DNA from: Scatophagus argus
Taxonomy: Eukaryota; Chordata; Actinopteri; Scatophagidae
Assembly (NCBI RefSeq): GCF_020382885.2
Contig: NC_058513.1
Span: forward strand, 7,969,774-8,033,773
Direction: 5' to 3'
DNA length: 64,000 nucleotides
The translations under genes were made by a program, and so were the position numbers. The stretch's first letter is position 1; every line of letters begins with the position of its first letter. Positions 11,301 to 38,205 of this stretch are shown one piece after another. The notes below the pieces were generated by a model. That model did not search any database and was not told where the DNA came from. It saw nothing but the letters and a program-made list of their open reading frames with translations.

Positions 11301-14300
11301 TAGTTGTGTGTTTTCTGCATCATGCGCATTTATAACTCTGTGTACCATTTGCTGCATCTGGTTTTCTGAGGCAACTTTTAGACCTTTAAAAGAAATATTT
11401 GAGAAACTGAACGTATTTCCTCCACACCTCTTCCAGTTCTGCTGGGGGCAGAGCAGCCCTCTCAATGTCACTGAGTTTTTTGATGATGCGTTTGACCGAG
11501 TCATCCTGGAAGTCAGTGGTGTCGTACTCACGGGCCCTCTGTCCATACTTCAGGGTGTGGGCTGACATCGCCAGGTTCTTCTCAAGCTAAAGAAGAATAA
11601 TGAATACTCTTTAATTTTTCGATTTTTGCATTACTTGTCAGTGTCATCAGGCTGATTTGATGGATGAATGGGTGGATAAATGGATGGACAGGTGAAAAAA
11701 ATACACAGATACTTTAGGCGGACAGACAGAAACATGCATACATGAGTTGATTAGTGATTTACTGATGCAATTCATAGTTGATTCACTGACACATTTTGAT
11801 TAACCAATCATTTTATTGATTCCGTAACTTAATGCACAAAATCAACACAAGATGCAACAATCCTTTATGTTTTATTGATGCGAAATGACACTTGAACAAT
11901 GGTGAGGTGACCTCAGAGGCGTAGGTCACTCAGAGGGTCTCACCATCGCCTGCTTATTATCTTCGTTGATGTCAGTGTTGTACTTCCAGGAGGCCTCAGT
12001 GTAGGCATTCCACACCACCTCTGCTGTGCTGTTGTACTCATCCAGAAATTTCTGTGCATCAAGCTCATCTGTATTCTTGTCTGGGTAAACAAGGAGAAGG
12101 ACAAGTCAGCTGAAATGCAGAAAGCGTACTGTAAATAAAGATCTGTGTAATTAAGTTTGACAAATTCTGTCACATTTAACAAAATTATGATGTGTGAATC
12201 GTGATTAGAATGTACAAAAACCACAGGCTCCTCTGTTTTGTGGGAGATTGCTTTAAATGGAAAAGAAAGCTGTACTTTTCACTTTGTGTGCATGCAGAGA
12301 AATTCAGACTGTGAAATACTTTACCAAAGCAAAAGAAACAGTTTGCACCACTGCACCACATCTAATCCATCCTGCCCAGTCACAAATTATTTGCTTTAAA
12401 GTTCACAATTTATTAGAATGCAGCTAAAGCTCTTGTGTTGTATTGTTTCTTCCACATAGTGTTAAACTATGCTTTTTGTTCCTCTCTTACCAATGTCCCC
12501 AGGATAACCCTCAGGGATGGGTGGAACCCAGTTGAAGTCAGGCCATCCCAAAGTCTCATTCAGTTTTTCATTTTGGTTTTTCAGCCATTCAGTAATGGGC
12601 TCAAAGTATTTCATCAGTGAGTTGGCATCCAACTTGTTGGTGCCTATAGCCTCCTGGAGTACCTCTGGCCAAGGTTTGGAAGAGCCAGCTTGAAGAATTT
12701 TTCTGGAGGAGGTAGAATGAGAAGGTATCACACCATCACTGTTTCCACAAAGCATTATTCGTGTTCAACAGAGGCCCAATCAGTTTACTAACTTCAAAAT
12801 GGCCCCTGCTTCTGCGGAACGGTAGATGTCACATTTGTGCAAGGGACCGGTGTGATTAGCTGCCTGGCACAGTTTTTCATGAAGCTGGAACTGCAGGATG
12901 AAGCTGACAAAATACCTGCAGAGGGAAAAAATACTTTTTTAAACACTGACAGAAATCATAATGAGAATTGAGGTAAGAAAACTATAAGATGGTGAGAATG
13001 CTACATGCATGTGTTAAAGAAACCAACAGTCAAAATGTTTTTTTTAACTAAGTGACATTTCCCACATTGTTAGAGGAACCATCTGGTTTCAGATAATTTT
13101 CTTTTGGACCCTCCTGCAACAAGCTTCCTGGTATTGTAGGGTTTTTTTTATTGTTTTAAACCCCACTCAAGTGCCAATAACTGCATCGAGATTACAGCAC
13201 ACACTACCTTAATCTCCAGCTCACCATCAGTTAGTTAATTCACCATTTTACAATGCCCCTCATGTATGTACACACATACACAAACACACAATTATTGCAA
13301 TTGTGTGCTGAAACAGTGCTGACCTCAATTTGTGGAAATTAAAACTCAAAAGTTGTCCTGTCTTTAGTGTTTCGTTCTCTTCACTTTGTAACAGTAAAGG
13401 TAATGTATTTATCAGACAGCTAGGGAAAAACTAAATACACATAATGTGAATATTGAATACCCAAGGTGATTGGCTTTATCTCCTCTGTTTCTACATAAAT
13501 ATGGGGCTGGAACAAGATGCTACCTGATGTATGGTGTGTTTCCAGGGATGTGGTATTTTGCCCCTGGATCAAAGTGGTCTTCTGTACGTCTGGAGGGTGG
13601 GCAGATACCTTGATATTTTGTCCTTTAAAAAGAAATAGAGAGAAAGAGTTAGAGCACACTGGCATAAGTGAGATAACTAAGACATGTCTTCTGGGAAGTT
13701 ATTCCAGTTGTTTTAGGTTGTCCATCCATATCCAAGAGTCAGCTGGAAATGTGTGTTGTTCTTCCTGTAACACCTCACTTCTCACATTACAGTGGCTATA
13801 ACATAACAGTTTTTTTATTACATGATAACAATGGCAATGTAATGTGAAAACAGTCTGACAACATTAAAGGGGCCTCTTGCAGTAATGAACGTACAGATAA
13901 TTATCATCCAAATAGCTTTAGTAAATTGCTTAAGTTTCAGTTCACACTCTCCACTCTCATATGGTTGTTTTTGACCACAGCAGGGTCCCATTCCCAGTCA
14001 AAAAGCTTGAAAAGCCCACTCCACACTAACTGCATAGTACCAAACTGACAGGCACTGGTGAACATGACAGAGAATTTAGCAACTTTGGAGTCAGATATCA
14101 CAATCAAAATCAGAAACAGTTGGCCAGTTTTGTTGGCCAAGTTTGCTGGCACACACAAGGAATTTGTCAGGGAAGAAATAGTCTGGCACTTAACCCCCTG
14201 TAAACCTACAACTTGTTGCTTTTACACTTTAGTTTTGTGCAGATTAAACAAGATACAATGTGTTAAATAGTGAGATTTTCTGGATTTTTGGACAGAGCCA

Positions 14301-17300
14301 TTGCTGGCTGTTTCCCCATTTCCGATCCTTACATCTAAATTAAGTTAACCAGCTACAAGCAGCAGCTTCATATTCATTGTATTTACTTAGAAATACAATG
14401 AATAAACTTGTATTTACTAAGAAAGTGAATAATGATATTCCCCAAAAAACATCAAACTTTTCAAAATATATTGAACCAGGTAATAAAAACGTACCTGAGG
14501 TACCACCATTCTGAGTTGTACCGATTTTCAGGGATTTTTCCACTGAACACCCCCCATCTCCACTGGTCAATGAGGTAGCCAAAGGGAAGGAAGGCTATCT
14601 TTTCCAGAGCCATCTTTAACAGGTAGTTGATGTCAGTTTCTGGAAAAACACAATGCCATATTTATTAAGCATTTGATGCTGAATAAGATATCTGTCTTTA
14701 TCTAACTGTGTAATATTGGGAATTAATCCACATGTGTTTAGTATTTCAGTGGCTTGGATTTTATTTTTGTCCATCTTAGTGTCTTTACCATTGTCAGAGG
14801 TCACGGTTTCCAGCAGACGAATGGTTTGCAGATGTTTAGGTGTGGAAACGGAGAGAGACAAAACATCACCAATAGCCTCATGAAAACCAGGGTTGGCTCC
14901 ACGACGGAAGCCCACAGGCAGGTCCTTGTATTGCAGGTAATACTGGACGTGTCCCATCTCATGGTGTACAGTGAAGAGCTGCTCCATCGTCACAGTAGTG
15001 CACTGTTTGATCCTATAGATGATGAAACATCAATACAACTGACTAATGGCTTTGTATTATCAAGCTTTATCAACAAGAATACCAATAAGTGGATTAAGTC
15101 TTTAAGTGTTAGGACTGTCTTGTGCTTAATCTGATTCCGTTGAAACTATGCAATAAAGTTCTGACTCTCAGATTTAATTCAAGGGTGTTGACATCCTCAT
15201 ACAGTAAAGTTTTTAAACCTTCACAAGAGTAAAAAGTGAGTCCTATACAGATCAATGGAAGTGAAGCTCTAATTTTACCTGAAGTCTTTACGGTTGTAAA
15301 AATCCCAAGCAGATGCATGGCACACCACCTCTCGACCCTCTGGCTTCACCAGCATGGATCCTTCCCAGAACTCATCCGGCATCTCGTCCAAACCCAGAGA
15401 GGTGAAAAACTCCTCGGCCACACGAAACATGAGCGTGGCATTATAGCCCTGTGCAGAGGAAACAATCACACAAGACACAATTCACTTCAGTGACATCTGT
15501 CAAAAGTATATATAATATAATTTGTGCTGATTTGTGGTGGCATTTTTTCTATAGGTGACACACAATCTTTGTCCCACACTTACTTGCTTGATCATTTCAT
15601 CAGTCACATCCATGTTGGGTTTGTCAGGAAATGGGATCATCATATTATAAATATTGTTCCATGTCTGGGCCCACATATTTCCTACGGATGAGGAAGCAAA
15701 CACACTTAAGCAACGGTTCTAACTTGGTATGCTACATTCCATACAGAGGCACTGTAGGAAATGCCTCATTCATAGCAATGAGACAAGTACACAAAATGAC
15801 TTGCCATAGGGTGTCTGCATCTTAATAAGTTTGCATCGTCTCCTGCATATGTGGTCACAACTTTGATGTTTTTCCAAGCTTTTATTGAATAATGAATCTT
15901 GACTTTAGGGAGTCCTTTTCAATGTGGTTCCAATTTGATAAAATGCTGGGATTTGTTAAGCTTTGCAGCTGACAAATTCTTAAATGAATCTTTTATTCAC
16001 AATCTTTGTTAGGTAGTTTATGTGCCTTTCTGACATATATGGTGATATATACAAACACATGCTTTTTCACTCTTGAGTCAGAGGCTCAAGATTGACTGAA
16101 CATGCGGGACAGCCAAATTGTGGATGCATTTCACCAAATTCAGTATTTGCAGGAGGGTAGTCATAACAAGGGGAGACCAATAAGTGATTTGCTACACCAT
16201 AATCTGTGACCTGCAGCAGTAGAACAAATTTACGGTTGGTGAAGTGCATCACACATACACAAAAATCTGTGATTTTTATTCGATTTCTTCATAATGAAAC
16301 AGAATATTGTTACATTTGTTGTCTTTACTTTAGCTTATAATCCCCACATTTTTCCCCCATAGCAAAAGGAAAATGAGTCAGGACAGGGTTAATGAATGTT
16401 GAAGAGTAATCCTATGCCCTTTCAGCATAGTAGAATCTCTAAGACTCAAGTATATTACTTGAGCGAATAAAAACTTCATGTGCCTTTATAATGGCACTAA
16501 ATTGTTGCCTTCTGCATAAGTCAGAATGCATTCACAGTGCACACACCAGGCCTATTTCAATGTAGCTATTCGACTTTAAAGGAAATTTAAAGGAAAAGAG
16601 TGAAATAAAACCTTGCCTGCTTTAACAAAAAACAGGTTATTCTCCCTTGCAAAGCTCCAGCCAACAGATAATGTACGTTAGCAACAAAAAACTGGTTCAT
16701 ACCAAGCAGGTGAGCAGGGATGGGTCCTTTAAGGTTGATGTATTTGGAACCATACTGGTTGTAGAGCTGGCGGCGCACAAAGGCATGCAGGTTCTGGTAG
16801 AGGGGTTCAATGGTCCTGTAGAGTTGCTCAAGATCTTGCTCAAAGGTCTCAGTCTCATACCAAGAGCGCCATTCAGCTCCAGTGTCCGCAAATCCTGAAC
16901 AGGACAGCATGTTGGTATTCTTTCTCTTTGTTTCAATCATTTTCTTGATCTTTCCTTTCTTTTCTCAGTCATTTCTCCTCCTTTACTCTCCTTATTCTTT
17001 GTTCTTTGTTCTTGTTAAATTAACGATGTATTTGTAGTATTATGAACCTTGTGTCTCTCTGCCAAAGGTCAAGAAGAGGTTCTTACCATCAGCTTGGGAG
17101 GCTGCATTGCTGAGTGTCACAAATTCGGGGTAGAGCTTCTTAAGAGGAACACCTGATGCATTGTGCCACCCCTCCCAGACGTACAGCAGCCTCTTGTAGC
17201 TCCTGGATGTGGCCATGATGTCTGTGAGCTCTGAAAAATGGAAGAAAAATCGCCCACACCCTTAGTTGTGAAGGAAAACATGGAATATAAAGGTAGGCAG

Positions 17301-20300
17301 GCTTACTCTGCTGCACAAACAAAAGATAACCCAAGTTTTTCCTGAAACAATCAAGACATATTCATGTTTAGATGACTTCAAGCTCTCTCAGCAGGAAAAG
17401 GGCAGAGATTAGCTCTGAGTTATGACAATTCCTCTTCTGAGCATCATGTAAAACAACATTTGTCTTTAGAAAGTCAGAGGAAATGAAGGTGAGGAAAAGG
17501 AGACAGTTGAAGACCATAGAATAGTGTTGAGATAGTAGAAAACTAACAGTCTGTTATTATTATGACACCATTTTCTTTGTGAAAGGATGCAGCCCATATT
17601 TTGTAATAATAACCCTGTTCCACCTTTGGCAGTAAATTTGATTATTTATGTTTACAAGTAGGCCCTATTTATTTTAAGTAGAAATAACCGTTTTTGCTCT
17701 CTTGTCATACTGTGTGTGTGTGTTGGCCAGGATTTCTCATAATTGCTTCTGGCAGCAAAACACGGAGCCATTGTTCACAATACATGTCGTCAGAGTTAAA
17801 ATCTACTGACATGTTGTTTCTATAGCTTTTAACTCAACACTCATGGGCATATTCACAACACTTCCTCTGGAGACCTCTCTGAAGTAAATGGTGCATCCTG
17901 TTACTTTTCCAAGAGCGGATAAGATCTTGACCACTTAGAACAGTTTTTCTTTCTAGATATCCCCACCACATTGTTGTTCGGTTAATATTCCTCAACAGTG
18001 CTGCTCCTGTTTTTTTTTCTAGTAACTAATTTTCAAAACATCTGTCTCACATAATTCATTTATTTCAAGACACAAACAGAAATTTTATTCTACATATACT
18101 CACCAGGTTCCAGGCTCCAGCTTATGTTTGGCTCTGGATGCACCTTGGCTGTAGAATAAATCTTGTCCATTTCGCTGAGAATTTCATTATACTGGAGACA
18201 AGAAAAGACAGCTGAAGTCAGTCTCTGATGCTTAAAAGCAATCAGCACTGATACGCTGACAAATCATGATTTCCAAGTCAAAAAAAAAAAAAACAGAAGC
18301 ACACCTTCTCTCTTTTGTCCAGAGGCAGGTTGGCAGCTCCCAGTATCTTGATCTTGCCCATCAGTTTCTTGTCTTTAGGGTCGGAGAGAGCGTTGAGAAC
18401 TGCAGGAGAGAAGACTTGCTTGGCTTTTAACCCCCATGCTGATGAGAAAGCTTGCTCTTCAAGGGATGCAGTTACCTAAAGAAGAGTCAATGACAATGAC
18501 ACTCTGAATGTCTAGATTTGTGCAATTACTCATCTTCTAAAATTCAAAGGCCTTTCAGCATTTGCCTTAAAACATGCAACCAAGAAAGACAACATTTATT
18601 TACACACATTAGTTTATCCTGTTCATAATGTTTGTTTGTTTGTTGTTGGACAGGTTAACATAACATTTATGGTCCTCTGAGAATGCATCTTTCTGATTTC
18701 CTCTAACACTCCCAGCAGACTGATGGGATGAAATATCTTAACAAATTTTTCATGAAATTTGTTGCAGGGATTCATGGTCTTTGTGAACTTTTTGGATCCC
18801 CTGATGTTAATTTCCACACCATCACCAGGCCAAAGTTCAATTATCTAACACTTTGGTTTATCTACAGTTTGGTTTTCTTAACAATGACCAATATGGCCTC
18901 ATAGAGCCGCTAGCATGGCTCTACACTATTCTAATTCAACTCCTTTTGCTGCAACATGTTTTCATCTGACTTATATGTCCCTTGACAGCTGTGCCGACAC
19001 ATCTTCCCTCTGGAATCAATAAAGTGCTCTTTCTGTCTATTGGGAGCAAGGGCAGAAAAAGAATAACCCTTCCACAAGGATAACATATGGCCTCACTGAA
19101 TCTCAGGAGCCTTTCTGGGGGGTCATGGACACACTGTAGGTGTTCTCTGTACATAATGCCAATGCTGAAGAAGGGATGGAGTCAAGGCCACTGTGGAAAA
19201 TTGCACAAAAAATGATGATCTATCACTGTATTGTTACATACATACATACATATAAATATACATATACCCCTATTTTCCTTGAAATTCAAGTTAAGGTTTC
19301 CATAAAATGAAAGCTGCTCCACAAAACATCCTTATGTTTTTAAGGTTAGTTAAACTGTTGCACAAAAGACCTTAGCAACCAAAGCAAGAAAAAGAGTGTA
19401 CTGTGACAAGGTGAACCAATAAATAAATACTTCTATACAGCCATAACAGTGTAATGGTTACTTCGACTAAGCTGAGTTAAAATTAGATGTTAAGAGTTTT
19501 TATTACCAGCGTTGTTGGGTTCTAATTTTTAACCAGAACAGACAAGTTGTCGTATTCGTTTTGGACTCTTCTCTCTACAAAATTTTAATTAATTTTCATT
19601 GTAATTTCGCTCACATCTGTTGTTTGTTTACTCTGTGTGCTGTCTTTTGCAATATTCCTTCAGAAGAATAACGTTTTCTTCTTCTATCCAATTTGACCTT
19701 TTTGCCTTTTTTTTCTTCTGGCAAACAAACCGTCTCCATGGAAACTGCAAGATTTTACTGCTTCAATGCAGTAAATGACTTAATGCTTTTTCTTAACTAA
19801 GTAAATATTTTATGGGATTCTGTGCAACACATTCAAGTGAGTCCATCAGCAAAGAAGAAATGAAGCATAAGTGCCATACCCAAATAGAAAACCTGAGGTA
19901 TTTTGTGCGTCTTATTGTGTTGCAACTCTATACTCCGCGTCATGCTTAAGTTAAGCTATGCAAACCACAGTGAAAACTGAGCTAGCTGTGTCATACTTGG
20001 AAAATGGAAACTAACACTATGTAACCACAGGGCAATGAGTTAATGCTCACAGCTCAACACATCCTGATAAAACTTACAGGACAGTAGCTTCATTTCAGTA
20101 ATGTTTTCATTAAAGCCTTTCTTATCTGTCATTCTCCCAGCCTTCGCTAAAATAACAGGCAACAGGATGGAAATCTGGTGACAGTGAGTTGAAGTATTAA
20201 CTCTGACCTTTGTGCGCTTCCTCTCAATCTCTGTCTTTTTCTCAATCGCTTTTTCCAGCATGCCTCCACCCATCCATCCATCCCCCCAGATAATCATTCT

Positions 20301-22495
20301 TGACCAAAACAACACAGTAAAGATAAGGCTGAAATGCTGATTTTTCTTTACATCAAAGTCTAAAAGACTGGAGTGATGAAATTTGTAATGACACAAACTG
20401 TTCCCATAAACCTCCCATAAACGAATCCTCATAATCATTTACACTTTAAACCTGTATACATAACCTGTACGTGTGCAAAGGACTTGAATCCCGCGCTGCT
20501 GTAAGTTTCTTTCCAAAATGAGATACAACATTCGCCTTGATTGCTATATACATTAAAATTAGTGTTCAGGTAAAGAGCTGTTGGAAGATATGTGTGTCTA
20601 AAGAAATTCTAATTGGGTGACAAAATCTTTCTGAAACGAATTCATAGTGTCTCAAAAGTAAACCACCACAGTGTAGGTAACTCTCAAACCTCACAGCCAA
20701 GTCACAAGAAAAGGCTGGCAGGAGCATGCAGTGAGGTAAATGACTGAGACTCAGCTCTGATAGTGACGCTTGAAGGCAGCTTGTATAGCAATCTGGGGTT
20801 CAAAGGACATCGGTCATTGATATCCACTCTCATCTGTTTTTATTCAGCACGGCTGGTCTGATCCACATTCTGTTTGATCCTCTACATGTCTAACCTGAGC
20901 CTCATCTGCACAGAGACCAAATCACCCTAACCTGTGAAGCTGGATGGGCTCAAGAGGAAGTGTGTGTGTGTGTGTGTGTGTGTGGGTGCATGTGCTTGCA
21001 CATGTTTTACTTTGTATGCATGCCTGGAGTATACATGCTGTCATCTAATCTGCAAGTCCATTGTAATAATTTCAATGCAACGGACTTGCAATGCGGAATA
21101 AGGGGAATGCCAACATTACAAAATTTCTCTGTCAGGCTGAGTTGCCATGCACCCCCTGGCTGCCAGATCAGATGGAGCTCACAGCTCTGAACCACTTTGA
21201 TCCCATCTCAGAAAAAAAAAAAATCATGCTCATACATGGCAACTAATAAGCCTGCTCATCTTTCACCTTACATCCCAGGCACATCCTGTAGAGCAGAGCA
21301 CATTCTGCAGCCTGACCCCATTGACCCTGGCGTGGTGGGGGCCACATCTACACCTGTTCAGTGTGTGAAGAGACCAGTGTTCAAGGCCTGGATAGTGAGC
21401 TGAAATCCTGTTGTGACAGCTGTACAAGCACACAATGAAAAAAAATCCAGAGACTTTACCCCGAGTGTGTCACTTGGATAATTTGCTTTCATAAATTTTT
21501 ATTTGCGTAAGCTTATATTGTTTGCACTCATCCATGAATGTGTAGAGGGTTGTGGTCAAAGGCAAGTCATACTGCTCTTTCACACCTCTACAGTTTCATT
21601 GTCTCCTGCAACCTCCTGCTGGGCTGTACGTTTCTCATGCTTCATTGCTGGTATCCTGTCTCCCTTGTCTTCAATGTTAATGCAAATGTCTGTCAGGCAT
21701 ATGGCCAGATGAAACGGTAAAACCATTGCAAGCTGCTGTTAGTGTAATGTTTCGTATCTTGCCTCTAACGGCCCGTTTTGAAATTCCTGCAAAGGTGAAG
21801 TGTTTTATCACCTGCAAGTATTGCCACATTGGATCATAAAGACTATTAGTGTGTGCCAAACTATGTCCTGTAACAGGTCCATCTGGAGAAACTGTATTAA
21901 GCAGAAATATCATAAAAAGGAAGCAACATAATAGCATGTGAGACTAGAAATTTATTCAAGACTAGAAGACGTTCGCACCACAGGCACTCAGATCTGTTTT
22001 TTATTTCCAGTAACACACAAGCTGAGTTGGCTGCACTGGGAGGAACTGAGCATGTATTGCTGGAGAGAGATGAATAGGGGCGATCTCCAAGTCAAGCAGG
22101 GTTCAGCTCCACAGAAACTCTTGGCCATGCATACATTTTTGATGACAAGGTGCCAGTACTGGCAAGAATGGAATTTACTCGATCAATTTTATCACAGCTG
22201 TGAGAGAAAGGATTAGTTAACATGTCACCCTCTAAGATCAAGACTCCACGAGTTGTCTTACCTGAAGATTGGAGTTGTAGTCCGTTATGTTGGTGTTGTA
22301 GTTCCAGCTGGCAGAGACACTGAAAAATAACACCTCCTCAGCAGTGCTGTTGTAGTCGCTGAGGAACCTCAATGCATCATCTGTGGTGTCTGCATAGTCT
22401 CCTGGCAGCCAGCTTTCACGTAGAGCCTCAGAGAGTCCCAGGACTGGCAGGAGCAGCAGCACTGTCCACAGAAACCTGTCCACACCGGTGCCCAT
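5310..22495 (-). CDS. ace: angiotensin-converting enzyme, somatic two-domain form
   Basis: A zinc dipeptidyl-carboxypeptidase (peptidase family M2) that converts angiotensin I and degrades bradykinin at the cell surface. Coding exons in gene order are 22262-22495, 18305-18475, 18104-18191, 17087-17230, 16703-16894, 15584-15681, 15279-15448, 14789-15012, 14495-14639, 13524-13622, 12793-12915, 12491-12702, 11944-12080, 11428-11586, 10492-10579, 10074-10217, 9653-9844, 9183-9280, 8517-8689, 7599-7822, 7357-7501, 7088-7186, 6710-6832, 6073-6272 and 5310-5494. All phases agree; the product is 1288 residues (human somatic form 1306). It has a signal peptide (residues 1 to about 24, [13 protein letters not shown]), two catalytic domains with HEMGH motifs, a membrane helix at about 1252-1270 and a short basic tail. 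The start is the ATG before the signal peptide. One donor (12793|GTTAGT) is non-consensus at +3 but keeps the frame. Confidence 0.96.
6073..11586 (-). other. ace: ACE C-domain exons
   Basis: Exons 11428-11586 to 6073-6272 encode the membrane-proximal catalytic domain. The zinc site is H981-E-M-G-H985 with E1009 in FHEAIGD (exon 7599-7822). The early disulfide loop CRKNGTC is kept in exon 10492-10579. Exon lengths (88, 144, 192, 98, 173, 224, 145, 99, 123, 200) match the N-domain series. In mammals a testis promoter lies in the intron before this half; I see no open reading frame here that would be a germinal first exon. Confidence 0.93.
12491..18475 (-). other. ace: ACE N-domain exons
   Basis: The eleven exons from 18305-18475 to 12491-12702 encode the N-terminal catalytic domain. 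The zinc site is H383-E-M-G-H387 with E411 in FHEAIGD (exon 14789-15012). The disulfide partners in [11 protein letters not shown] and in KLC/KCDIY are present. The first disulfide of mammalian ACE (two cysteines around a short NG/NKT loop) is missing here: exon 18104-18191 reads [14 protein letters not shown]. Exon lengths run 88, 144, 192, 98, 170, 224, 145, 99, 123, 212, closely mirrored in the C-domain, which shows the internal duplication known for ACE. Confidence 0.93.
18476..22261. other. ace intron 1
   Basis: Longest ace intron (3.8 kb). It holds a TG microsatellite at about 20961-20983 and AT-rich unique sequence. Several open frames of 60-130 codons occur on both strands, but none has splice signals in phase with ace or a recognisable motif. 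Confidence 0.5.
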
Positions 22496-22546
22496 GGCTA
22501 TCCTCCACCAAAGAGTGGAAGAGAAAAACTGGAAAGAGTTGGAAGC

Positions 22547-22554
22547 TATAAATA
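22547..22554 (-). promoter_or_regulatory. ace: possible ace TATA-like element
   Basis: TATTTATA on the - strand, 52 bases above the ace start codon. A start site about 25-30 bases below it would leave a 5' leader of roughly 25 bases. An ATTGG (inverted CCAAT) is just upstream. Only position and sequence support this. Confidence 0.3.
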
Positions 22555-24146
22555 CGCTTGCTCCAATGAAGTGAGAGTACACCTTCCCCCTGGAGCTGTT
22601 GTCTCAACCACTCCTTCTCTGTTCCCTTCTTAGCCTACCAGCCTGGCTGGTTAAGTGCACAATTGCCAAAGCGAGCTTCTTTTTAAGTGGCAGTTTAACC
22701 CAGCCCACACTTCTCTGCAGCCTTCCCTCTTAACACTCTATAGCATTGGACATATCCCCCCCCACCCCCCTTCTTTTTCAGTGTACCAGCCTGTCAGGAT
22801 TCAGAGAGCTGGCAACGTCTTGATATTCAAGTTTCTATAACTGAGATGAGAGATAAGATATGACACACCATTGCAGTGTGTCTGCCTGCTTCCTTGCCTG
22901 TGGAGTGGTGGATACTCACTAACCTGGGAGGGACTCCACATACTTTGCTCTCAGTTCCCTCCTTCAGCTTAGTGACAACAGAGGGAGGGGGAGTTGTGAA
23001 GACAGGGGAAATGAAAGAGACAGGGAATAGGGGAATCAAACACGAGGGTGTGAGCGCTGAACATTGAGGGCTGAGCAGGCTGCGAGTGAGATAGAGTTAC
23101 AAAATAGTGAAAGGAGCTGGCTCACCTCAACTCTGTCGTTTATACAAAACCTGCACAAATAGTGCAGTTTACAGCAGTCCCAGACTGTCAGAGCATTGCA
23201 CATTCAGATTAGTGTTACAGCATTCATTTAAGTGTGTGTTTGAGGGGGATATTCCACTGAGCTATTTATTCCATTCACTTGAGGGAATAAGAAACCCATG
23301 TGCAATTCTTTTTCCTCATAATCATTGAGTAAACAAACCTAATTCAGTGAGTTCCTCACATTCTTGGGGAATCCTCTGGGAGAGAAGACTGAATGAGGTT
23401 ATATCACACAGCAAAATCCTATTCTGTATTTAACTTAATTTTATTTTACCTTCAACTGGGCAAGTCATTAGAGCAGATTCTTATTATTAGAATTTTGGAA
23501 GGCACTACAAAATATCAAAAGCTGAAAAGCAGCTGTACACATCCAAACATTTTCAGCACACACTTACATATAAGCAAAACAAACATTACAGAAATGAAAT
23601 GAAATCTAGCACACAAGCAACAGACATAAGGCTGGCAGAGAAGAGCTTCGCACAAAGGTGACTTCCAGAAAAATTGTCCAGTTTTAGTGCTTTTTGCAGA
23701 TCATTCCAGTCTTTGGGTGCAGCAGCTGAAATGGCAACAGACCAAATGCGGTATTTGTTACACGATGGACAACAATGAAGCACATTGTGCAGTGCTGAGA
23801 GCAAAGCACAAAAGATGTTTTGGGAAAAATTCATGCAAAAATTAGTCCGTTCAAAAACCTCAGTGAACTGGATACACTGAATACAAAACAGTTTTGTTTA
23901 ATAAAACTGTTTAATAAATAATTAGGAAACAAATCCCACTTTTGATATTATTTATGATCAGTGTTTCAGTATTTATCATATCTCCCTGTACAGTTGATAC
24001 TATATTAATGATTACTGGCGGAGTTCACCATCCCACCCAGGATTTAGACTGTCTAACTGCACCTGGGGCTCACAGGAATACAATACAGGCAATCTATCTA
24101 ATCTATCCATCTAATTCGTCACAGCCACAGTTCTGCTTTGATGTGT

Positions 24147-29324: not shown

Positions 29325-31860
29325 ATGGGAGACATGACGGAGGAAAAGAACTTTTCTAAAGTTATTTCTCAGATATTAGAAGGCGCGCCTGCTGCCAGGA
29401 GGGGTCTTACTGATAACTACAGCAACCTCCTCCGAGTCGCAGATTACTGCGAAAACCACTATCTTCAGGTGAGTAATGCTCACTTAAAAAAAAACACACA
29501 CACACACACACACAACAGCTGTCCTCTAAAAACATAACTTACATAATATTTTCGAGATCATTTGGAAGATTTTTGCCAGTGGTGGAATGTAATTTGGCTG
29601 CTGTACTTGAGTACAATTTTGAGGTATTGCGCACCGATTTTCTATTACGTGTTGGCTGCTACTTCTCCTACGTTTTAGAGAAAAATACTTAGGAAGTACT
29701 AGTAAAAAGTTTCAGGTAGAGGTTTTACATTTAAAACATGATCAGTTTAGCTACACACCTATATATTAAGTAGGTGAGAGCTTGACAATATTAAAATGCT
29801 ACTCAGCCTTGAGTAAGAGTTATATTTTCGTACTGTGGTATTATTACTTTTACTTGAGTGAAAGAGCTTACCTTTTTCCCATCATTGGATTTTATAACAT
29901 CTATAACCTATCCTGGTTTTAAATGTAATCCTACAGGCAGAGGATCCAACCAAAGCTATGGAAGAGGCCAAGGCTTTGGCTACCCAGTCACTGGCCAGTG
30001 TGACCTACCAGATCAACAGTCTGGCTGGCACCATGCTGAGGCTACTGGACTCACAAGCCATGCAGATCAAAGACATGGAGTCTTCAGTCAACCTGCTGTC
30101 ACTGGTCAGGAAGACATCTCACCCCTGCACAGCTGGCAAAAACTAAAACTAAAAAATTGCTGTGATCCATTTGTTTTCTTGTTGTTGCATCTTTATAACA
30201 GAAGTTATTATAAAGGGAAACAGGTGATGTGAAATTAGAGTTCTTGTGTATTGTTCATGTTCACGTTCTGCTATGCTCCAGGCAACAGCTATACACTTTG
30301 AGAAGGTAGCCAGGAGAGAGATCGGTGCTTTTACTACTCCCAAAACCAAGACTCGGTCCAAGCCTTTCACCCCACCGACTTCAAGCAAGGAGCCAGAAAT
30401 AAGCTACTCAAGAGTGCCCATATCATACTCCATCTTGGACTCCATTGGGCACTGTTTTCAGGTAAATCAGAAAAAAGACTAAAGTGAGTCCACACACCTT
30501 TTATTATTACCCATTAGATTAAAGATGTGTATCATAGAGCAAGCCGCCTTTTCAGTACTGTTGTCCCAGTGTGATTCTGGAGTGATGTACAGTATGGCTG
30601 ATTGTGGTGTACACGTGTGCTGAAGCCCTTTTTTTTTTTTTTCCTTTATCTTGTACCAACAGGTCACTGAGCAGCAGCCCAGATCAACAGCAGGGACCAC
30701 AGACAGCATACAGAGCACTAAAGACATCGTTGTGTATGTAAACAAAGTCCCCTTTTTCCCTTTTAATAGCAATACTGTTACACTACAAATAATTATATAA
30801 TGAAACATTAAATATCCAACATCACGGGCATAATATCTAACGTTACACAAACACTTTATGATCATGTCTGAAACTTGCTTCTTTGATACTTTGGTTTTTT
30901 GTATGATAACAAACTCATTATGAAGCATTAACTTGTATTAAATCAATGTGCATTGGGAGACTTTTTGCTGGAAAGTGGGGAGCACCATTTTTCAGCAAAA
31001 ATTAATATCTGAATTCACAATGAAGTCTTATTACTGTTTCTTCATTTCCAGTATTTGTGCTAAGTTTAGCTAACGAGCCATTGTCTGTAGCTTCTTATTT
31101 AGGGTACAAACATGACAGTGATATTAGTCTTCTAATCCAACTCTCAGCAAGAGCAAAATGTTTCCTAAAATGTGAAACTAATCCTTTAAGATACTACAGC
31201 TGTATCATTCTCGAATATTCATTTGTAAAATAACTACAATACTTCCCCTGAAATGTTGTGGAGTAGAAGTAGAAAGTGGCCCAAAATACCCAAGTAAAGT
31301 GTAAATACTTTATACAGTACTTAAGTACAGTACTTGAGTAAATATACTCAGTTACATTCCTGCACTGCTCTGTAGCTGAAGGTCAGTTTCCTCTTTGTCT
31401 TGAATACAGATCCAATTTCGGCATCGCCGTGCCTCCACCTTCAGTCCCCACCTTGCAAACTGTCTCGAACGCCACCAACGACAGCCTACCTCCCCCGCCC
31501 CCTCCTACTGCCAGTCTAGATCCCAATATGCCTGTTGCTCCACCACCACCACCACCTCCCCCTTCCTTCATGGACACTGGCCTCCCTCCTCCTCCCTCCT
31601 TGACATCACCCACATGCTCCCCCCCACCTCCCCCTCCACTGTCAAATGGCACGTACCTGCCTCCTCCTCCTCCTCCTCCTCCTCCTCTTCTGCAATCGGG
31701 AGCTGGTCCTCTTTCACCTCCTCCTCCTCCTCCTCCTCCTCCACCACCACCACCGCCAATGTCAGGAGCTGTGCCCCCTCCTCCTCCTCCTCCACCACCA
31801 CCCCACATTGGTACCTCTGGCAGTGTGCCGCCACCTCCTCCACCCCCTCCTGTACACTAA
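29325..31860 (+). CDS. abi3: ABI family member 3-like WAVE-complex adaptor, no SH3
   Basis: Coding exons are 29325-29468, 29937-30104, 30282-30461, 30663-30733 and 31410-31860, with compatible phases, giving 337 residues. Abi proteins are subunits of the WAVE actin-regulating complex. Recognisable parts are [14 protein letters not shown] (exon 1), [16 protein letters not shown] (exon 2, residues about 68-83) and [13 protein letters not shown] (exon 3), all matching the Abi N-terminal region, and ABI3 best. The last exon is almost pure polyproline blocks (residues about 215-335) and ends PPPPVH-stop. Human ABI3 (366 residues) ends in an SH3 domain; none is encoded here or in the 1.2 kb that follows, and a poly(A) signal sits 141 bases after the stop. 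It could be abi3a or abi3b. ABI1 and ABI2 are longer and less similar. Confidence 0.87.
29578..29880 (+). repeat. dispersed repeat in abi3 intron 1
   Basis: Starts CCAGTGGTGGAATGTAA, continues GTACTTGAGTACAATTTTGA and ends with GTGGTATTATTACTTTTACT. It belongs to a well-known fish repeat rich in GTACTT/AAGTAC words. An inverted fragment is at 31250-31372 and a 3' part at 45500-45685. Confidence 0.6.
31040..31195 (+). repeat. dispersed repeat, family with a copy at 37425
   Basis: Contains GTAGCTTCTTATTTA, GACAGTGATATTAGTCTTCT, CCAACTCTCAGCAAGA, TTTCCTAAAATGT and ACTAATCCTTTAA. The same ordered words recur at 37425-37610. Confidence 0.6.
31250..31372 (-). repeat. inverted fragment of the 29578 repeat family
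   Basis: Reads GTACAGTACTTGAGTAAATA then CTCAGTTACATTCCTGCACTG. This is the reverse complement of the start of the family at 29578, so two inverted copies bracket abi3 exons 2-4. Confidence 0.55.
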
Positions 31861-32009: not shown

Positions 32010-33117
32010 TTTAAAAAGTGTGCGTGTCATGGTTTAAACTTGAGCTGTGTAATCTGTGTTGGCAGGGTGAGTTAAAAACGTATTTGTTTTTTTGTTTTTC
32101 TTGTTTTTTTGTTTTTTTTTTCCAGGACAGAAAATTCTTGTTTTGCTGCAGTTGAGATACCTCAGCATGTTTCAACAACACCTCAACTGCATTCCTCATC
32201 AACAAGCTGCAACAGGGACTCTTGTGTTTCCCTGATCTCCTTTCCCTTTTATTTTTTTTACTGTTTTGTGATCTTTTTTTCTTATTACATCTTTGTCTTG
32301 TTTATTAGTGTCTCTTAATCAGCAACGACCACCTTAAGAGCAAGTGCATTTAGCCCATTTTACTATGTGGTGACTGATGTGTACGTCATCAGCTGTAACC
32401 TCAAACCTCAGTGAGTTCTGCTAGTTTAAACAGGTCATTCAGGCTATAGAATGGCTGTTGTAAGTCTACACTTTACATAACCTGCTTTACACGCCTTGTA
32501 CTTGGAGGTAAGCTTCATTTTATGCAAGGAGATTATAAAATTGCTCAAGGACAGCCTATCCAAGATTGTTATCAATTGTTATTTTCCTAAATGTTACACA
32601 CTTGTCCAGAATGGCCTGAAGCTGGAAGACCAGCCTCATTGTGCATCAGGGAAATGAAATCTTTTGCTGCTGTCTCTAATTGCTGTCTAGTTTTACTTTA
32701 ATCTATTAAAATTCAAGTCTGTAAACCAACATCCCATAATAGCTATACTTAGCGGTTACAGTTTTAACTTTGAACTGGAGTGTCACGCAGACAAAGATGC
32801 CATTCTGTGTAAGAACAAAATCTACTGCATTAGCTATACTTTCCAGCATTGTGTAGCTTTCTCACAGTAATTACATCTGCCTTAAAAGTGCTCTGTTTAT
32901 GCCAGTGTGAGTAAGAGATATGAAGAGATAAAGAGCTACCTTTGAACTTTCCATGTATGAATGTATTGTAAAACTAAACATAAAATTGCATGGCAAACAG
33001 TAAAATAGAGTTACAGTCTTAAGGTTTAAAACCAGATCCTCTAGAGTGACAAAGCCTCTTCATTTTTCTCTTCAGTATCCTTCGGTGTTAAACCTGATTT
33101 AAAAAAATATAACTGCC
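32010..33117. other. spacer between abi3 and the first PPxY gene
   Basis: AT-rich. A donor-like AGG|GTGAGT at about 32066 and an acceptor-like T-run plus CAG at 32113-32126 could form an intron in an extended abi3 3' untranslated region. No SH3 sequence or other domain was found in any frame. Confidence 0.35.
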
Positions 33118-33700
33118 ATGGTCTTTTTTTATCCTTCAATTGAGTAAGTACTTCCTCTGTTCTCACTGTGTTATGATTGATTTCCTTATATACATCATTG
33201 TACGCATGGTGCACATATAGTAAACTCATCTTTTATTTCAGGATTCCCTTCTTGTGTTTTTGCATCGTTCTGTGGATTTTATGTTGCCATTTTACAAAGA
33301 ACAGCAGTGAAGCCGAGGACTCTCCCCTGGGGACCACCAACTCTGTATACATCATCCCCATATATGAGGAGGAGTCGCGAGAAGAAGAAGTAATGGACGA
33401 GGTACATTTTCAACGTCCGTACAGAGACCCTATATGGGGTCGAACATGTTGCCCACATTCTTGCATTTATCATGTTACATAATGAGGATGTAATTTAGAT
33501 ATACAGTTGGTTGAATGTATTTTTTTCTAATATAGATGGTCTTTAAAAAGGTCTCCAAGAGCTTTCGTAATGAAAAACAAAATACATCAGTTCCCTTCTT
33601 TGTAATTTAAATGTCTCCTCTTTTCTAGCTTGAACCACCACCATATCCAGGCCCACCACCATCATACACAGACCCTCCTCCTTATTCAGAGCAAACCTGA
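33118..33700 (+). CDS. small single-pass membrane protein with three PPxY motifs (copy A)
   Basis: Three coding exons, 33118-33143, 33242-33401 and 33629-33700, give 85 residues. The start ACTGCCATGG fits the vertebrate initiation consensus. Exon 1 encodes MVFFYPSI and two bases of a Glu codon; a possible 5' untranslated acceptor is CTCTTCAG at 33068-33075. A membrane helix follows (IPFLCFCIVLWILCCHF, residues about 10-26), then an acidic linker (YEEESREEE). The tail is PPPYPGPPPSYTDPPPYS. PPxY motifs bind WW domains, for example of NEDD4-type ubiquitin ligases, so an adaptor role at a membrane is the likely inference. AATAAA at 33871 completes the gene. I do not recognise an orthologue. The layout recalls TMEM92 and other short WW-binding membrane proteins, but the cysteine-rich ectodomain is absent. 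Confidence 0.72.
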
Positions 33701-33870
33701 TCTTCGTTATTCCTGAGCTTACTCCTCCTCCTCTTCCTCACACCCTGCTAGCCTGAACATAATGTACTTTTTAATCACATGGCAGGTCTACGGATTTAAA
33801 CCGAGACTCAGATTTTGACACTGTGGTTATATTTCAACATTTGCAAACCTGTATGCACATTTGATGTCAA

Positions 33871-33876
33871 AATAAA
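33871..33876 (+). terminator. poly(A) signal of PPxY gene A
   Basis: AATAAA 171 bases after the TGA at 33698-33700. Confidence 0.6.
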
Positions 33877-33899
33877 ATAAGTTCACAAATTATATCAAT

Positions 33900-36670
33900 G
33901 GTGAGCAAAGAAAACACAAAATTATAAAGTTGCAGCAGCAAACTGTGAAACTCAAAGTTGCCACTGTGACTGACACTGAACAAGTTTCAGCCCCACATTT
34001 ACAGCCAAAACTAGGACCAAAATTTGCTATTTCTATGCACTGTCTGTAAATGCTCTTTCTGATGTGAACCTGGACCCAGATTTTTTAAAAACCCAAAGCT
34101 GATATTTCTCAGCAGCTCTTTTCTTGAATTTCTCATGAGGAGTTTTGGCACTAGTTTTCTGAATATTATTTCACAAGTTTTAACTCTTTTGGATCCTTAC
34201 CAAACCTTAACCTTTTAATGCATGTGATGCATGTGATTATACCTTTCACTTGAGACATATACATACAGGATTAATTTGGCTGGAAACAATCCACTATGTG
34301 GAAAGGAGAATTTTTATTTAACTTATTTTATCTTGCTTAATTTTACAAAACTCAGTAAAAACCCTACTGAACAGTATGCATGTGTGGACAATTTAAGTGG
34401 AAAAGTATTTGAGTGAAGTCACTTGGAAGTTATTATAATACTTTGTTATTTTATTCAGCTGATGTCCATTGTATGAAATTTATACTCGAATACAATAAAT
34501 TTAAAAGTGTGATCATACACTATATAGACAAAAGTATTTACTTTACTTATTTCCAGTGAAGGGAAATTTTAATGCTTCAGCATACCAAGACATTTTGGAC
34601 AATGCTTTGCTTCCAACTTTGTGGCAACAGCAATGCACAAAGCAAAGTCCATAAAGACATGGTTGGATGGGTTTGGTGTGGAAGAACCTGACAGGGCCAC
34701 TCAGAACCCTGACCTCAACCCCATCCAACACCTTTGGGGTGAACTGGAACGGAGATTGCGAGTCAGACCTTTTCATCCAACATCAGTCCCTGACCTCACA
34801 AATGCTCTACTGCATGAATGGGCAAAATCACAGAAACACTACAAAATCTTGTGGAAAGCCTTCACAGAAAAGTGGAAGCTGTTTTGGCTGCAAAGCTGTG
34901 TATGTACTTAGAGTACAATATCATTTAGGTCCCAGTTGGTGCAATGGTCACGTGTCCCAATACTTTTTTCTATATGCTGTACTTCAGATTTTCTGAAAAA
35001 AAAAAAAAAAAGTGTCTGATCCAAAAGTGTGTTTTCTTGTCCGAAAGCTAAATAGAAAAATGGGTTTCAGGCCACAAAGTGCCATGAATTCTGTAAACAT
35101 TATATTTTGTGGGTTTTTTTTTATTATTATTACAAAAAAAAAACCCACACACAAAAATTTTATATTTTTCATCATTAACCATATTGAATACCATAATTAT
35201 AAACAGAAAAGGAGAGGCCTAATAACTGACCTCTGAAGAATGTCATTGTTGATTGTTTTTTCAGATTTCTGAATGATTTTGTTAAACATATGCAAGAAAT
35301 ATACCAGACACTGAACACACCTCTAAGTCCTGTGTCTTTAAAAAAGACAATAATGCTATAAAAGCACTTCACATTCTGTACTTCCCTAAGTGACACATTA
35401 TCCTTTGATAGCAACCCACGGGACAATTTTTAATGTTTTGGATTATTAAATAAGGTAAGCACTCATCCAGCTGTAATATCATGATAAAAAATGATATTCT
35501 GTGTCATTAGTGTAAAGTATGTTGGAATTATGTGAATTAAACTGACTTTTTCCTACAGTTGTAAAGAGTGACAGATTTATAGGATGAAGGTCCACTGTCA
35601 GTTGTGAAACTCAGACTAGTATAAAGTCAAACAGTACGCTAATCACGCTACTTCTTGAGATCCTAACAACTTTCTAGTTGTACACTATTTGGATGCTTTC
35701 AAAGTTTTTAAAACGGCATTAATGGTAGTGAAACACTGCAGTGTCACTGTGGTTTTCAGGGGGATACTGTAAACTAAGATAAAGTAAAATCTGACACAGT
35801 ATCATATCCTGCAATGTCAGCTCACCCCCACTCATTGATTTTTGCCAACTGCATGTCCAAAAACTCAGAAAAGACTGCTTACTGTTTTATATTATTCTCT
35901 TCCCGTATGTTGTATAAAAATTCTGATCTAAATAGGCTGTTCTCTTGTGTATATGTCTTAAGAATAAGTGAAAAAAGTTTTTGTTTGGTTGTTATTTTTT
36001 GTGCAAACAGATGGAAAAAGGTTTTGCAAGAATAATCTAGGTTTCTTATTTTTTTTCCATCTTATTTTTAGTTATTTATTTATTTTTTATTGTTGTAATA
36101 CTCATTTTGGCCACAAGGGGATGAAGTGCCCCGATACCACATGTTCTGTTAATATAGATAGTCCTGCTATTCTTAGCCAGACCAGCCTGACTCTGCCTCT
36201 GATTGGTTGCCATCGTTGGTTGGACTGCTTAGTTTTTGCAGGAGCTGTGAGACTTGTTGGAGTTATGGTACAAAATATCAAACCACAGGCAGAGTAGGAC
36301 AGTTCTTGCAGAGAAAAGCAGTGGGATCAATAACACAAAGGGTATAAGCGCATCTAACCCTCTTATGGCAGAAACCAGTATTACAACAACAAACACTTGG
36401 AAAAATGATCCTGACAAAATAAAGAAGTAAATAATCATTATGCCATATCTATAAATCTGTGGTAAATTTTCCACCCTTTTCACCTGTTGACACAAAAGAG
36501 TTTGAGATCACATTATTTTTTCTAACTTGTCTGTCTGAGCTTCCATAGAATTACTACATTCAGTATTTGGTCCAACTCTCATTTCAAAGACTTGGCATGA
36601 CAGAAGACCAGATCACTTAACTGTATTGTTGTATCTGCTGTACTATATGTCCTTTTTCTTCCCCTCACAG
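33900..36670. other. spacer between the two PPxY genes
   Basis: 2.8 kb of AT-rich sequence whose only recognised content is the Tc1-like remnant (34516-34982) and homopolymer runs near 34997 and 35116-35143. No third gene copy was found. Confidence 0.45.
34516..34982 (+). mobile_element. deleted Tc1-like transposon
   Basis: Bounded by inverted repeats: TACACTATATAGACAAAAGT at the left, and at the right (as reverse complement) TACAGCATATAGAAAAAAGT, 3 mismatches in the first 23 bases. Inside, frame 34621-34911 keeps the C-terminal part of a Tc1 transposase (TWLDGFGVEEPD, NPDLNPIQHLWGELERRLR). The N-terminal half is gone. The motif normally written DLNPIE, which carries the third acidic catalytic residue, reads DLNPIQ. 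It is therefore non-autonomous. It lies between the two PPxY genes. Confidence 0.85.
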
Positions 36671-36700
36671 TAATGTCAGCAGGCTGACACTATTCAAGTT

Positions 36701-37173
36701 ATGACTGCGATACTCAATATTTTTATGTAAGTAGCCAAATCAAATCAAGACTGAATGTCAGCATACAGGAAGGGAAGTTTTGACTTGCAAATAATAAAAT
36801 CCTGAAATTATGGAAATGTGTTCCTAGATTCCCAATCTTGATGATGGTGATAGCTGTAGTACTCCTCTGCTTCTACCTGCACATCAGAAAGAAAAGAGCA
36901 GTGAGTGACGTCACCATACCAACAACCCAAGATGGCAACACATCTTCAGTACATACAATTTCTTTGCCTGAAGATCAGGCAGGAGAAGACAGACATTACG
37001 ACAGATTCCCTCCACGGTACAGCACTGTGGATCTTCCACCACCATATTCACTGGTGTGTGAGCCCTCGCAACAGTCAGTCACTGACACTGGATCCCTGCA
37101 CACAGATCTTAACAGAGATTTAAACTATTTGTCTAATATTTGTAAATATTCATACATATATATACATATATAG
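36701..37173 (+). CDS. small single-pass membrane protein with PPxY motifs (copy B, short form)
   Basis: Coding exons 36701-36726 and 36828-37173 give 123 residues. Exon 1 encodes MTAILNIF plus two bases, exactly the geometry of copy A (8 codons + 2 bases, then GTAAGT), and the upstream acceptor (CCCCTCACAG, to 36670) lies 30 bases before the ATG. The helix (residues about 7-25, FIFPILMMVIAVVLLCFYL) is followed by HIRKKR, so the tail should face the cytosol. The tail has PPRY and PPPY. The short form runs on to a TAG after an AT-rich stretch (YIYIHI) and has an AATAAA at 37247. A long form may instead splice at 37053. Orthologue not recognised; similarity to copy A rests on gene structure, helix position and PPxY content. 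Confidence 0.62.
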
Positions 37174-37246
37174 GAGAATCTTTTACCAAAACCACTTATG
37201 GTATTTTGACTGAATTTCGAGAGATAAAAGTGGTTGACAATTCTCA

Positions 37247-37252
37247 AATAAA
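37247..37252 (+). terminator. proximal poly(A) signal of PPxY gene B
   Basis: AATAAA 74 bases after the TAG of the short form. Confidence 0.45.
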
Positions 37253-37424
37253 TATTTTTAAACCCTAATTTAATATCAGTGAAAAATCAACACAAATCAA
37301 CACAAATCAATGGCTTAGTTTGACATTTTGATAAAATAAGTTTTAGTTATACAAAATACACTGATTCCTCCTGTGGTTGTTTTACACTGAACTGTGTGAC
37401 AGACTATTACTTCACATAGTGACT

Positions 37425-37610
37425 TCCTGGAGTCCTGTCATTGAGATGACCTAAGCTAGCTGATTCTGGGCTAAGTTAAGGAAAGTAGCTGTTAGTGGTA
37501 GCTTTATATTTACCATAAAGACAGGAGGATGTATCAGTCTTTTCAACTAACTCTCAGTAAGAAAGCCAATAAGTAAATTTCCTAAAATGTCAAGCTATTC
37601 CCTGAAACAC
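37425..37610 (+). repeat. second copy of the 31040 repeat family
   Basis: Contains GTAGCTTTATATTTACC, GTATCAGTCTTTTCAACTAA, CTCTCAGTAAGAAAGCCAAT and TTTCCTAAAATGTC in the same order as at 31040-31195. It lies inside the putative long-form intron of PPxY gene B. Confidence 0.6.
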
Positions 37611-37718
37611 TGAAACTCCTTTGTACTTTACATGATTTGAAATATGAATTATAAAAATCTGTAATATTTTTAAAATACACTGTTGTACAATTTTACTCTG
37701 AACTTCACTTTGATGCAG

Positions 37719-37904
37719 TTTGACCCCAAGCTGACACACGCATGGCCGGGGGGCCCGCCACCTGCCTACGAGATGTATCCAATAACATTGCCTCTGGCAC
37801 CTCATCACTGGATGACGCCCTCAGAACCTCCAACCCCACCTTCCTCACTCAGCACCCATAACAACCCATGGCCACAGAGGTTACGCCAACCACCCGCCAT
37901 CTAA
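37719..37904 (+). CDS. likely last exon of PPxY gene B, long form
   Basis: Phase-0 exon after the acceptor TTTGATGCAG (37709-37718). It encodes 61 residues to a TAA, starting FDPKLTHAWPGGPPPAYEMY and otherwise rich in proline. The preceding exon has an in-phase donor CTG|GTGTGT at 37053/37054, right after PPPYSL. Joining them gives a 145-residue protein with PPRY, PPPY and PPAY motifs. An AATAAA at 38200-38205 would end this form. The donor is not strong, so use of this join is an inference. Confidence 0.5.
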   Translation, partial: FDPKLTHAWPGGPPPAYEMYPITLPLAPHHWMTPSEPPTPPSSLSTHNNPWPQRLRQPPAI

Positions 37905-38199: not shown

Positions 38200-38205
38200 A
38201 ATAAA
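38200..38205 (+). terminator. distal poly(A) signal of PPxY gene B
   Basis: AATAAA 296 bases after the TAA at 37902-37904, about 260 bases from the likely mpp2 signal on the opposite strand. The two genes end tail to tail. Confidence 0.4.

Follow-up and report, generated by a model that had tools for sequence, protein, structure and literature searches.

A stretch of 64,000 nucleotides (nt) from the genome of the fish Scatophagus argus (C21:7969774-8033773, contig NC_058513.1; hereafter, the window) contains two small plus-strand gene models in tandem, which we call gene A and gene B. Both look like real genes, related to each other and of a known functional kind, and neither fits any of the families against which they were checked. 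The functional class in question is that of the PPxY membrane adaptors, whose combination of a helix with several PPxY motifs in one tail is present in both A and B. We consider it fairly probable that the two genes are an old tandem duplicate pair and, jointly with this, that their products would act as membrane-held adaptors activating ligases of the NEDD4 family.

Gene models and shared anatomy

The initial annotation of this DNA had described a tandem pair of membrane genes with matching exon geometry, and its coordinates, exon lengths, GTAAGT donors after exon 1 and frames all proved exact. The predicted product of gene A has 85 amino acids (aa) and reads MVFFYPSIEIPFLCFCIVLWILCCHFTKNSSEAEDSPLGTTNSVYIIPIYEEESREEEVMDELEPPPYPGPPPSYTDPPPYSEQT, encoded by positions 33118-33143, 33242-33401 and 33629-33700 (26, 160 and 72 nt, with an intron 1 of 98 nt). 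The predicted product of gene B has 145 aa, encoded by 36701-36726, 36828-37053 and 37719-37904 (26, 226 and 186 nt, with an intron 1 of 101 nt). All four introns begin with GT and end with AG, splicing is in frame, and the intron phases are 2 and then 0 in each gene. As had been described, each first coding exon comprises eight codons and two further bases, with the codon before the helix completed by the first base of exon 2. The repeated PPxY motifs claimed for both tails (three per predicted protein) and the polyadenylation, or poly(A), signals claimed for both genes were also found. The features of the two models are the following:

33076..33143, plus strand: gene A start-codon exon, with a putative 5' untranslated region (UTR) at 33076-33117 and coding sequence at 33118-33143 (MVFFYPSI plus 2 nt); acceptor-like site upstream (score 6.1), GTAAGT donor, in-frame TAA 18 nt 5' of the ATG
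33242..33401, plus strand: gene A exon 2, with GT-AG borders, frame and a hydropathy peak at residues 8-26
33629..33700, plus strand: gene A exon 3, reading LEPPPYPGPPPSYTDPPPYSEQT and then TGA, with three PPxY motifs
33635-33646, 33656-33667 and 33674-33685, plus strand: gene A PPxY motifs, in exon 3
33871..33876, plus strand: gene A poly(A) signal AATAAA, 3' of the stop
36671..36726, plus strand: gene B start-codon exon, with a putative 5' UTR at 36671-36700 and coding sequence at 36701-36726 (MTAILNIF plus 2 nt); acceptor-like site upstream (score 8.0), GTAAGT donor, in-frame TAA as the first codon of the exon
36828..37053, plus strand: gene B exon 2, with transmembrane helix, RKKR stop-transfer and a tail with two PPxY motifs; acceptor weak (-4.9)
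37009-37020 and 37036-37047, plus strand: PPRY and PPPY, respectively, in the tail of gene B exon 2
37719..37904, plus strand: gene B exon 3, with PPAY (37758-37769), a proline-rich C-terminus and TAA
37247..37252, plus strand: candidate AATAAA that a gene B transcript retaining intron 2 could use (from the sequence of window positions 37054-37252)
38200..38205, plus strand: gene B poly(A) signal AATAAA, 3' of the stop

Each predicted protein shows a single strong 19-residue hydropathy peak, from residue 8 in A (2.25) and from residue 4 in B (2.97), and nothing comparable beyond residue 25. Exon 2 of gene A encodes the transmembrane (TM) helix, a CC pair at the membrane border and an acidic juxtamembrane tail with IPIYEEES, the tail starting after the helix end in CC and one Lys. 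The motifs follow in the order PPPY, PPSY and PPPY (residues 65, 72 and 78) in A, and PPRY, PPPY and PPAY (residues 70, 79 and 98) in B. Retention of intron 2 in gene B would give a candidate short form, in which the frame stops at 37171-37173.

The repetition of the start-codon exon was analyzed over both strands of the window. The string ATG-N23-GTAAGT occurs four times, and only the occurrences in A and B are free of stops. An acceptor, CCTCTTCATTTTTCTCTTCAG, stands before 33076, 42 nt upstream of the gene A ATG, and another, TCCTTTTTCTTCCCCTCACAG, before 36671, 30 nt upstream of the gene B ATG; sites as strong as the latter occur at 0.09 per kb per strand, all splice scores being computed with approximate consensus tables. 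Because good acceptors precede both ATGs and the anatomy is repeated, the coding pieces of 26 nt are probably parts of longer second exons, which start at 33076 and 36671 behind a 5'-UTR intron. Both of these exons contain an in-frame TAA 5' of the ATG, so no ectodomain could be joined through them.

A search that required an acceptor score of at least 6 (a threshold chosen after the 6.1 of gene A was known), an ATG no more than 60 nt away and then at most 90 nt without a stop before GTAAGT returned exactly two places, namely A and B, both with runs of 26 nt. Under looser settings the two genes made up from 2 of 4 to 2 of 13 places with GTAAGT and from 2 of 5 to 2 of 23 with GTRAGT; the loosest setting (GTRAG) gave up to 70 places, three of them with 26 nt, and always included A and B. 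Forty Markov resamples analyzed with the strict setting yielded a mean of 0.525 matches (maximum 4), and two matches of equal length appeared in none of the 40. Two strict matches are thus unremarkable by themselves; that they have the same length before two related helix exons is remarkable.

Kinship of A and B and points against a functional pair

The repeated motifs go beyond chance: of 2179 open reading frames (ORFs; stop-to-stop, at least 20 aa, six frames) in the window, 9 contain a PPxY, and more than one motif is found only in gene A exon 3 (three) and gene B exon 2 (two). Alignment of the two predicted proteins scored 69, compared to 33.5 ± 5.8 in shuffles, a value reached by none of 2000. 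The tails alone scored 62 against 37.0 (reached by 5 of 2000 shuffles), and the juxtamembrane part, which includes neither PPxY nor helix, 40 against 18.6 (1 of 2000). When exon 2 of A was compared with exon 2 of B in all 36 frame pairs, the coding pair was the best, with 47, followed by a runner-up with 34. Further, tblastn within the window (no composition correction) led from query A to exon 2 of B (E = 4.6e-4) and from query B to exon 2 of A (E = 0.049). By these sequence comparisons, A and B are related to each other, distantly.

Several observations weigh against this picture of two functional duplicates. The similarity of the tails is modest once the PPxY motifs are fixed in the shuffles (score reached by 24 of 2000). 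Proline runs elsewhere gave similar or better E-values in the same tblastn (5.9e-4 with A, 1.6e-5 with B), and therefore the E-value between A and B alone proves little. The acceptor of gene B exon 2 scores only -4.9, with about 29 equally good sites per kb on each strand, and the donor of intron 2 in the same gene is GTGTGT. When codon bias was tested after training on 984 codons, the true frame came first of six for exon 2 of both genes but not for exon 3 of either. Finally, the genome yielded no additional recognisable member of the family. The remaining splice scores are 6.5 and 6.2 for the acceptors of exons 2 and 3 in A and 2.3 for that of exon 3 in B, and 1.1 and 0.9 for the donors in A and 2.5 and 3.8 for those in B.

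The weak exon 2 acceptor and the lack of codon-bias support for either exon 3 would fit decayed or chance open frames without function, gene B above all. We give this explanation only the faintest chance: neither model is interrupted by a stop or a frameshift, and the in-frame similarity between A and B, together with the repeated mini-exon anatomy, speaks against it.

With regard to further copies, the whole genome was searched (570.7 Mb, 48 contigs) at E up to 10. Gene B as query found only itself, and gene A found itself and seven weak places (L005-L011). None of the seven holds an ORF with multiple PPxY motifs (tblastn and a PPxY scan on both strands), and they were rejected as further paralogues; three have a single PPxY (L005, L010 and L011), which at L005 lies about 120 nt past the match and was judged to be chance. 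A copy beside other MPP2-type loci was also rejected, as 90 kb of sequence flanking three such loci (C17, C16 and C9; nine 10-kb pieces, from a single side of each locus) contained no multi-PPxY ORF. Since neither gene was recovered with the other as query in these genome searches, equally distant relatives would be missed. Searches of PDB, Rfam, bacterial and viral contigs and DNA repeats gave nothing useful for either gene, and a literature search turned up no paper on them, which cannot show them to be undescribed.

Predicted adaptor function and relation to known families

The proteins predicted from the two putative transcripts would be single-pass membrane proteins with a lumenal or extracellular N-terminus of about eight residues, and with neither signal peptide nor ectodomain. 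A topology with N-terminus out and C-terminus in is predicted for both because positive residues follow the helix (Lys in A, RKKR in B) and the short N-termini are uncharged or acidic. The helix would concentrate the three PPxY motifs of the cytosolic tail in the membrane, where they would bind the WW domains of NEDD4-family HECT ligases and lift their autoinhibition. The recruited ligases would then meet membrane clients, the ubiquitination of which would lead to endosomes and lysosomes. That WW-domain ligases are recruited, as the initial annotation had also proposed, is what one would naturally infer from the triple PPxY tails.

The two tails are not alike. Gene A adds the LPxY-like IPIYEEES, an acidic stretch and a pair of membrane-border cysteines that are possibly palmitoylated, and gene B overlaps PPxY with YxxF-type signals (PPRYSTV and PPPYSLF); these differences suggest a division of labour. 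ENaC is a protein that combines PPxY with a YxxF-type signal. IPIYEEES is similar to LPxY-acidic motifs, of which a WBP1-type gene in the same genome provides an example, LPSYEEVA. For Shisa proteins, palmitoylation has been proposed at cysteines in this border position (PMC10531659).

Since YAP, WWOX and further WW proteins are bound by PPxY as well, the sequence of A and B does not fix their partner. Instead of ligases, the tails might recruit WW proteins such as YAP/TAZ, WWOX or those of the dystrophin type and tether them at membranes, with no ubiquitination involved. PPxY is a general WW ligand, and nothing in A or B singles out HECT ligases. We nevertheless assign this alternative a slim chance, as a membrane protein with three close motifs is in keeping with the membrane-held PPxY (PY) arrays that activate Nedd4 ligases, which, in the account given in PMC5892558, must be membrane-held or polymerised for efficient activation.

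Known systems illustrate the recruitment proposed for A and B, each with differences. Ndfips are described as carrying three PY motifs (PMC5892558). Commissureless, a short membrane protein, is reported to recruit Nedd4 through PY motifs, with Robo1 being sent to lysosomes and degraded (PMC12101832). According to PMC11399591, CYYR1 brings WWP1 to late endosomes; the same paper cites WBP1L as an adaptor of WWP1, WWP2, ITCH and NEDD4L for CXCR4.

NDFIP1 and NDFIP2 share with A and B a membrane-held triple PY array, which in NDFIPs activates NEDD4 ligases. NDFIPs have several helices. A Pfam scan of A and B gave no NDFIP match and, unlike in A and B, the NDFIP motifs are placed in the N-terminal cytosolic part (PMC5892558). 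Drosophila Commissureless and the PRRG proteins are, like A and B, short and single-pass with L/PPxY, and Commissureless links a client to Nedd4. However, Commissureless is stated to require the extended motif GLPSYDEAL (PMC5578492), of which A has only IPIYEEES and B nothing. The PRRG proteins differ in having Gla domains, both they and Commissureless being compared by Pfam scan only. PMEPA1 and LDLRAD4 show the short lumenal part, helix and PPxY tail found in A and B; their Smad-binding motif was not seen by eye in either gene, and the comparison was otherwise by Pfam scan only.

Membrane-held PPxY arrays help to decide which membrane proteins are ubiquitinated by NEDD4-family ligases. A pair without ectodomain and with diverged tails would offer a compact natural test of the motif number, flanks and sorting signals that suffice, and would make plain that family libraries miss small adaptors that evolve fast.

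The closest layout is that of the STMC6/Shisa-like adaptors (CYYR1, WBP1, WBP1L, VOPP1 and TMEM92), which, like A and B, have a single helix and several PPxY motifs in the cytosolic tail, and share cysteines at the membrane border with gene A. Their members are described as combining a signal peptide with an ectodomain of the pattern C*C*CC*CC, a single helix and PY motifs (PMC5578492, PMC11399591, PMC10531659), zebrafish Shisa-9b being given as an exception for the signal peptide (PMC10531659). By contrast, the A and B models contain no such ectodomain and apparently no signal peptide, with only eight codons upstream of the helix exon, and no family profile matches either protein over cut-off.

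The initial annotation could not name a family, which agrees with the Pfam scan (no match for A, one below threshold for B). The distant kinship with TMEM92 that it had suggested was not supported, and neither was one with VOPP1 or WBP1. The corresponding profile, PF11669 (cut-off 28.1 bits), matched neither A nor B at E up to 10, and a provisional TMEM92 sequence exceeded the cut-off (30.3 bits). A provisional VOPP1 sequence reached 17.0 bits, so PF11669 itself misses VOPP1. Further, the alignment scores of the A and B tails with provisional TMEM92, VOPP1 and CYYR1 sequences were reached by 255 to 1596 of 2000 motif-preserving shuffles, that is, the tails were not clearly above them, and TMEM92/VOPP1 kinship was rejected.

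The sub-threshold match of B was to the CYYR1 profile PF10873 (16.1 bits, cut-off 31 bits), to which A gave no match. None of eight shuffles of B with helix and PPxY kept was matched. In the whole genome, this profile recovered CYYR1 on C24, with three exons over cut-off (89, 50 and 48 bits), and 20 further sub-threshold places, taken by score alone, at 15.7-22.5 bits. As 16.1 bits falls among these, we regard the match as background and rejected gene B as a CYYR1 member.

Intron positions were also compared. In CYYR1 of this genome (L031-L033, C24:10.093-10.097 Mb), the TM exon is immediately preceded by a phase-2 intron, which follows a GTAAGT donor, and the PPxY exon by one of phase 1, as opposed to the phase 0 of the second intron in A and B. 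At the WBP1-type loci the intron directly before the TM is of phase 1 (five TM exons, two of them read on both sides and three on the acceptor side only). A, B, CYYR1 and the WBP1-type loci thus have in common an intron that immediately precedes the TM exon; this is no published criterion, and a layout so common among genes is weak evidence for STMC6 kinship.

These observations bear on the origin of the pair. A and B might derive from a CYYR1/WBP1/Shisa-like gene that retained the TM exon and the PPxY tail after losing the signal peptide and the Cys-rich exon, and would still encode WW adaptors. The phase-2 intron and GTAAGT donor of CYYR1, the intron directly before the TM in WBP1-type genes (though of phase 1), the common layout of helix, membrane-border cysteines (in A) and PPxY tail, and the PF10873 match of B but of none of its shuffles would fit such a descent. 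We hold it to be unlikely, given that the 16.1 bits of B lie below cut-off and within the genomic background, that the second intron differs in phase from that of CYYR1, that the tails do not clearly exceed motif-kept shuffles and that the Cys pattern is missing upstream, as set out below. Equally unlikely is its full version, a lineage-restricted pair that lost the ectodomain, was duplicated and diverged into an A with a palmitoylated acidic tail and a B with endocytic PPxY/YxxF signals. If true, this fish lineage would possess two membrane proteins dedicated to recruiting HECT ligases, which tetrapods lack.

Alternatively, an upstream ectodomain exon could have been missed in one or both models, which would splice straight to exon 2 and skip the mini-exon, giving a type I protein and perhaps a true STMC6 member. 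The phase-2 intron before the TM would permit this, and an ORF-level search would overlook exons of fewer than 20 codons or a Cys motif split across exons. However, the C*C*CC*CC pattern (gaps of up to 25 residues, within one ORF) occurred in none of the 68 upstream plus-strand ORFs of at least 20 aa, and Pfam gave nothing over cut-off in the 16 ORFs scanned of the 20 upstream ORFs with three or more Cys. The duplicated ATG mini-exon also argues for its own use, and the in-frame TAA shuts it upstream. We therefore consider a missed ectodomain quite unlikely, and retain the old duplicate pair of ectodomain-free adaptors as our reading.

Genomic surroundings

Genes A and B lie between an Abl-interactor gene upstream and, on the minus strand downstream, an MPP2-type MAGUK, whose PDZ has MAGUK p55 member 2 as its best match (E = 3e-30) and whose SH3 and L27 domains are over cut-off. 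The Abl-interactor exon of the window occurs once, and four relatives, more distant, were found at other places in the genome. In this ABI3-like gene, a long proline-rich ORF (31342-31857) terminates with a stop codon. A provisional ABI1 SH3 query gave the SH3 of the MAGUK as its best match and revealed no ABI-type SH3 exon in the window; the gene may lack the usual C-terminal SH3.

Further upstream, an angiotensin-converting enzyme gene occupies window positions 5313-22603 on the minus strand; one exon was confirmed, and its ORFs, read by eye, suggest two catalytic domains. An ITGA3-like end near 2047-2277 was read by eye and not confirmed by the Pfam scan. Between A and B, a possible remnant of a DDE-type transposase lies at 34573-34908 (PF13358, E = 0.029, below cut-off). 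Outside the window, near a second MPP2-type locus, a homeobox exon that by eye is of the DLX type was observed at positions 6575-6907 of L017 (C17:13078001-13088000).

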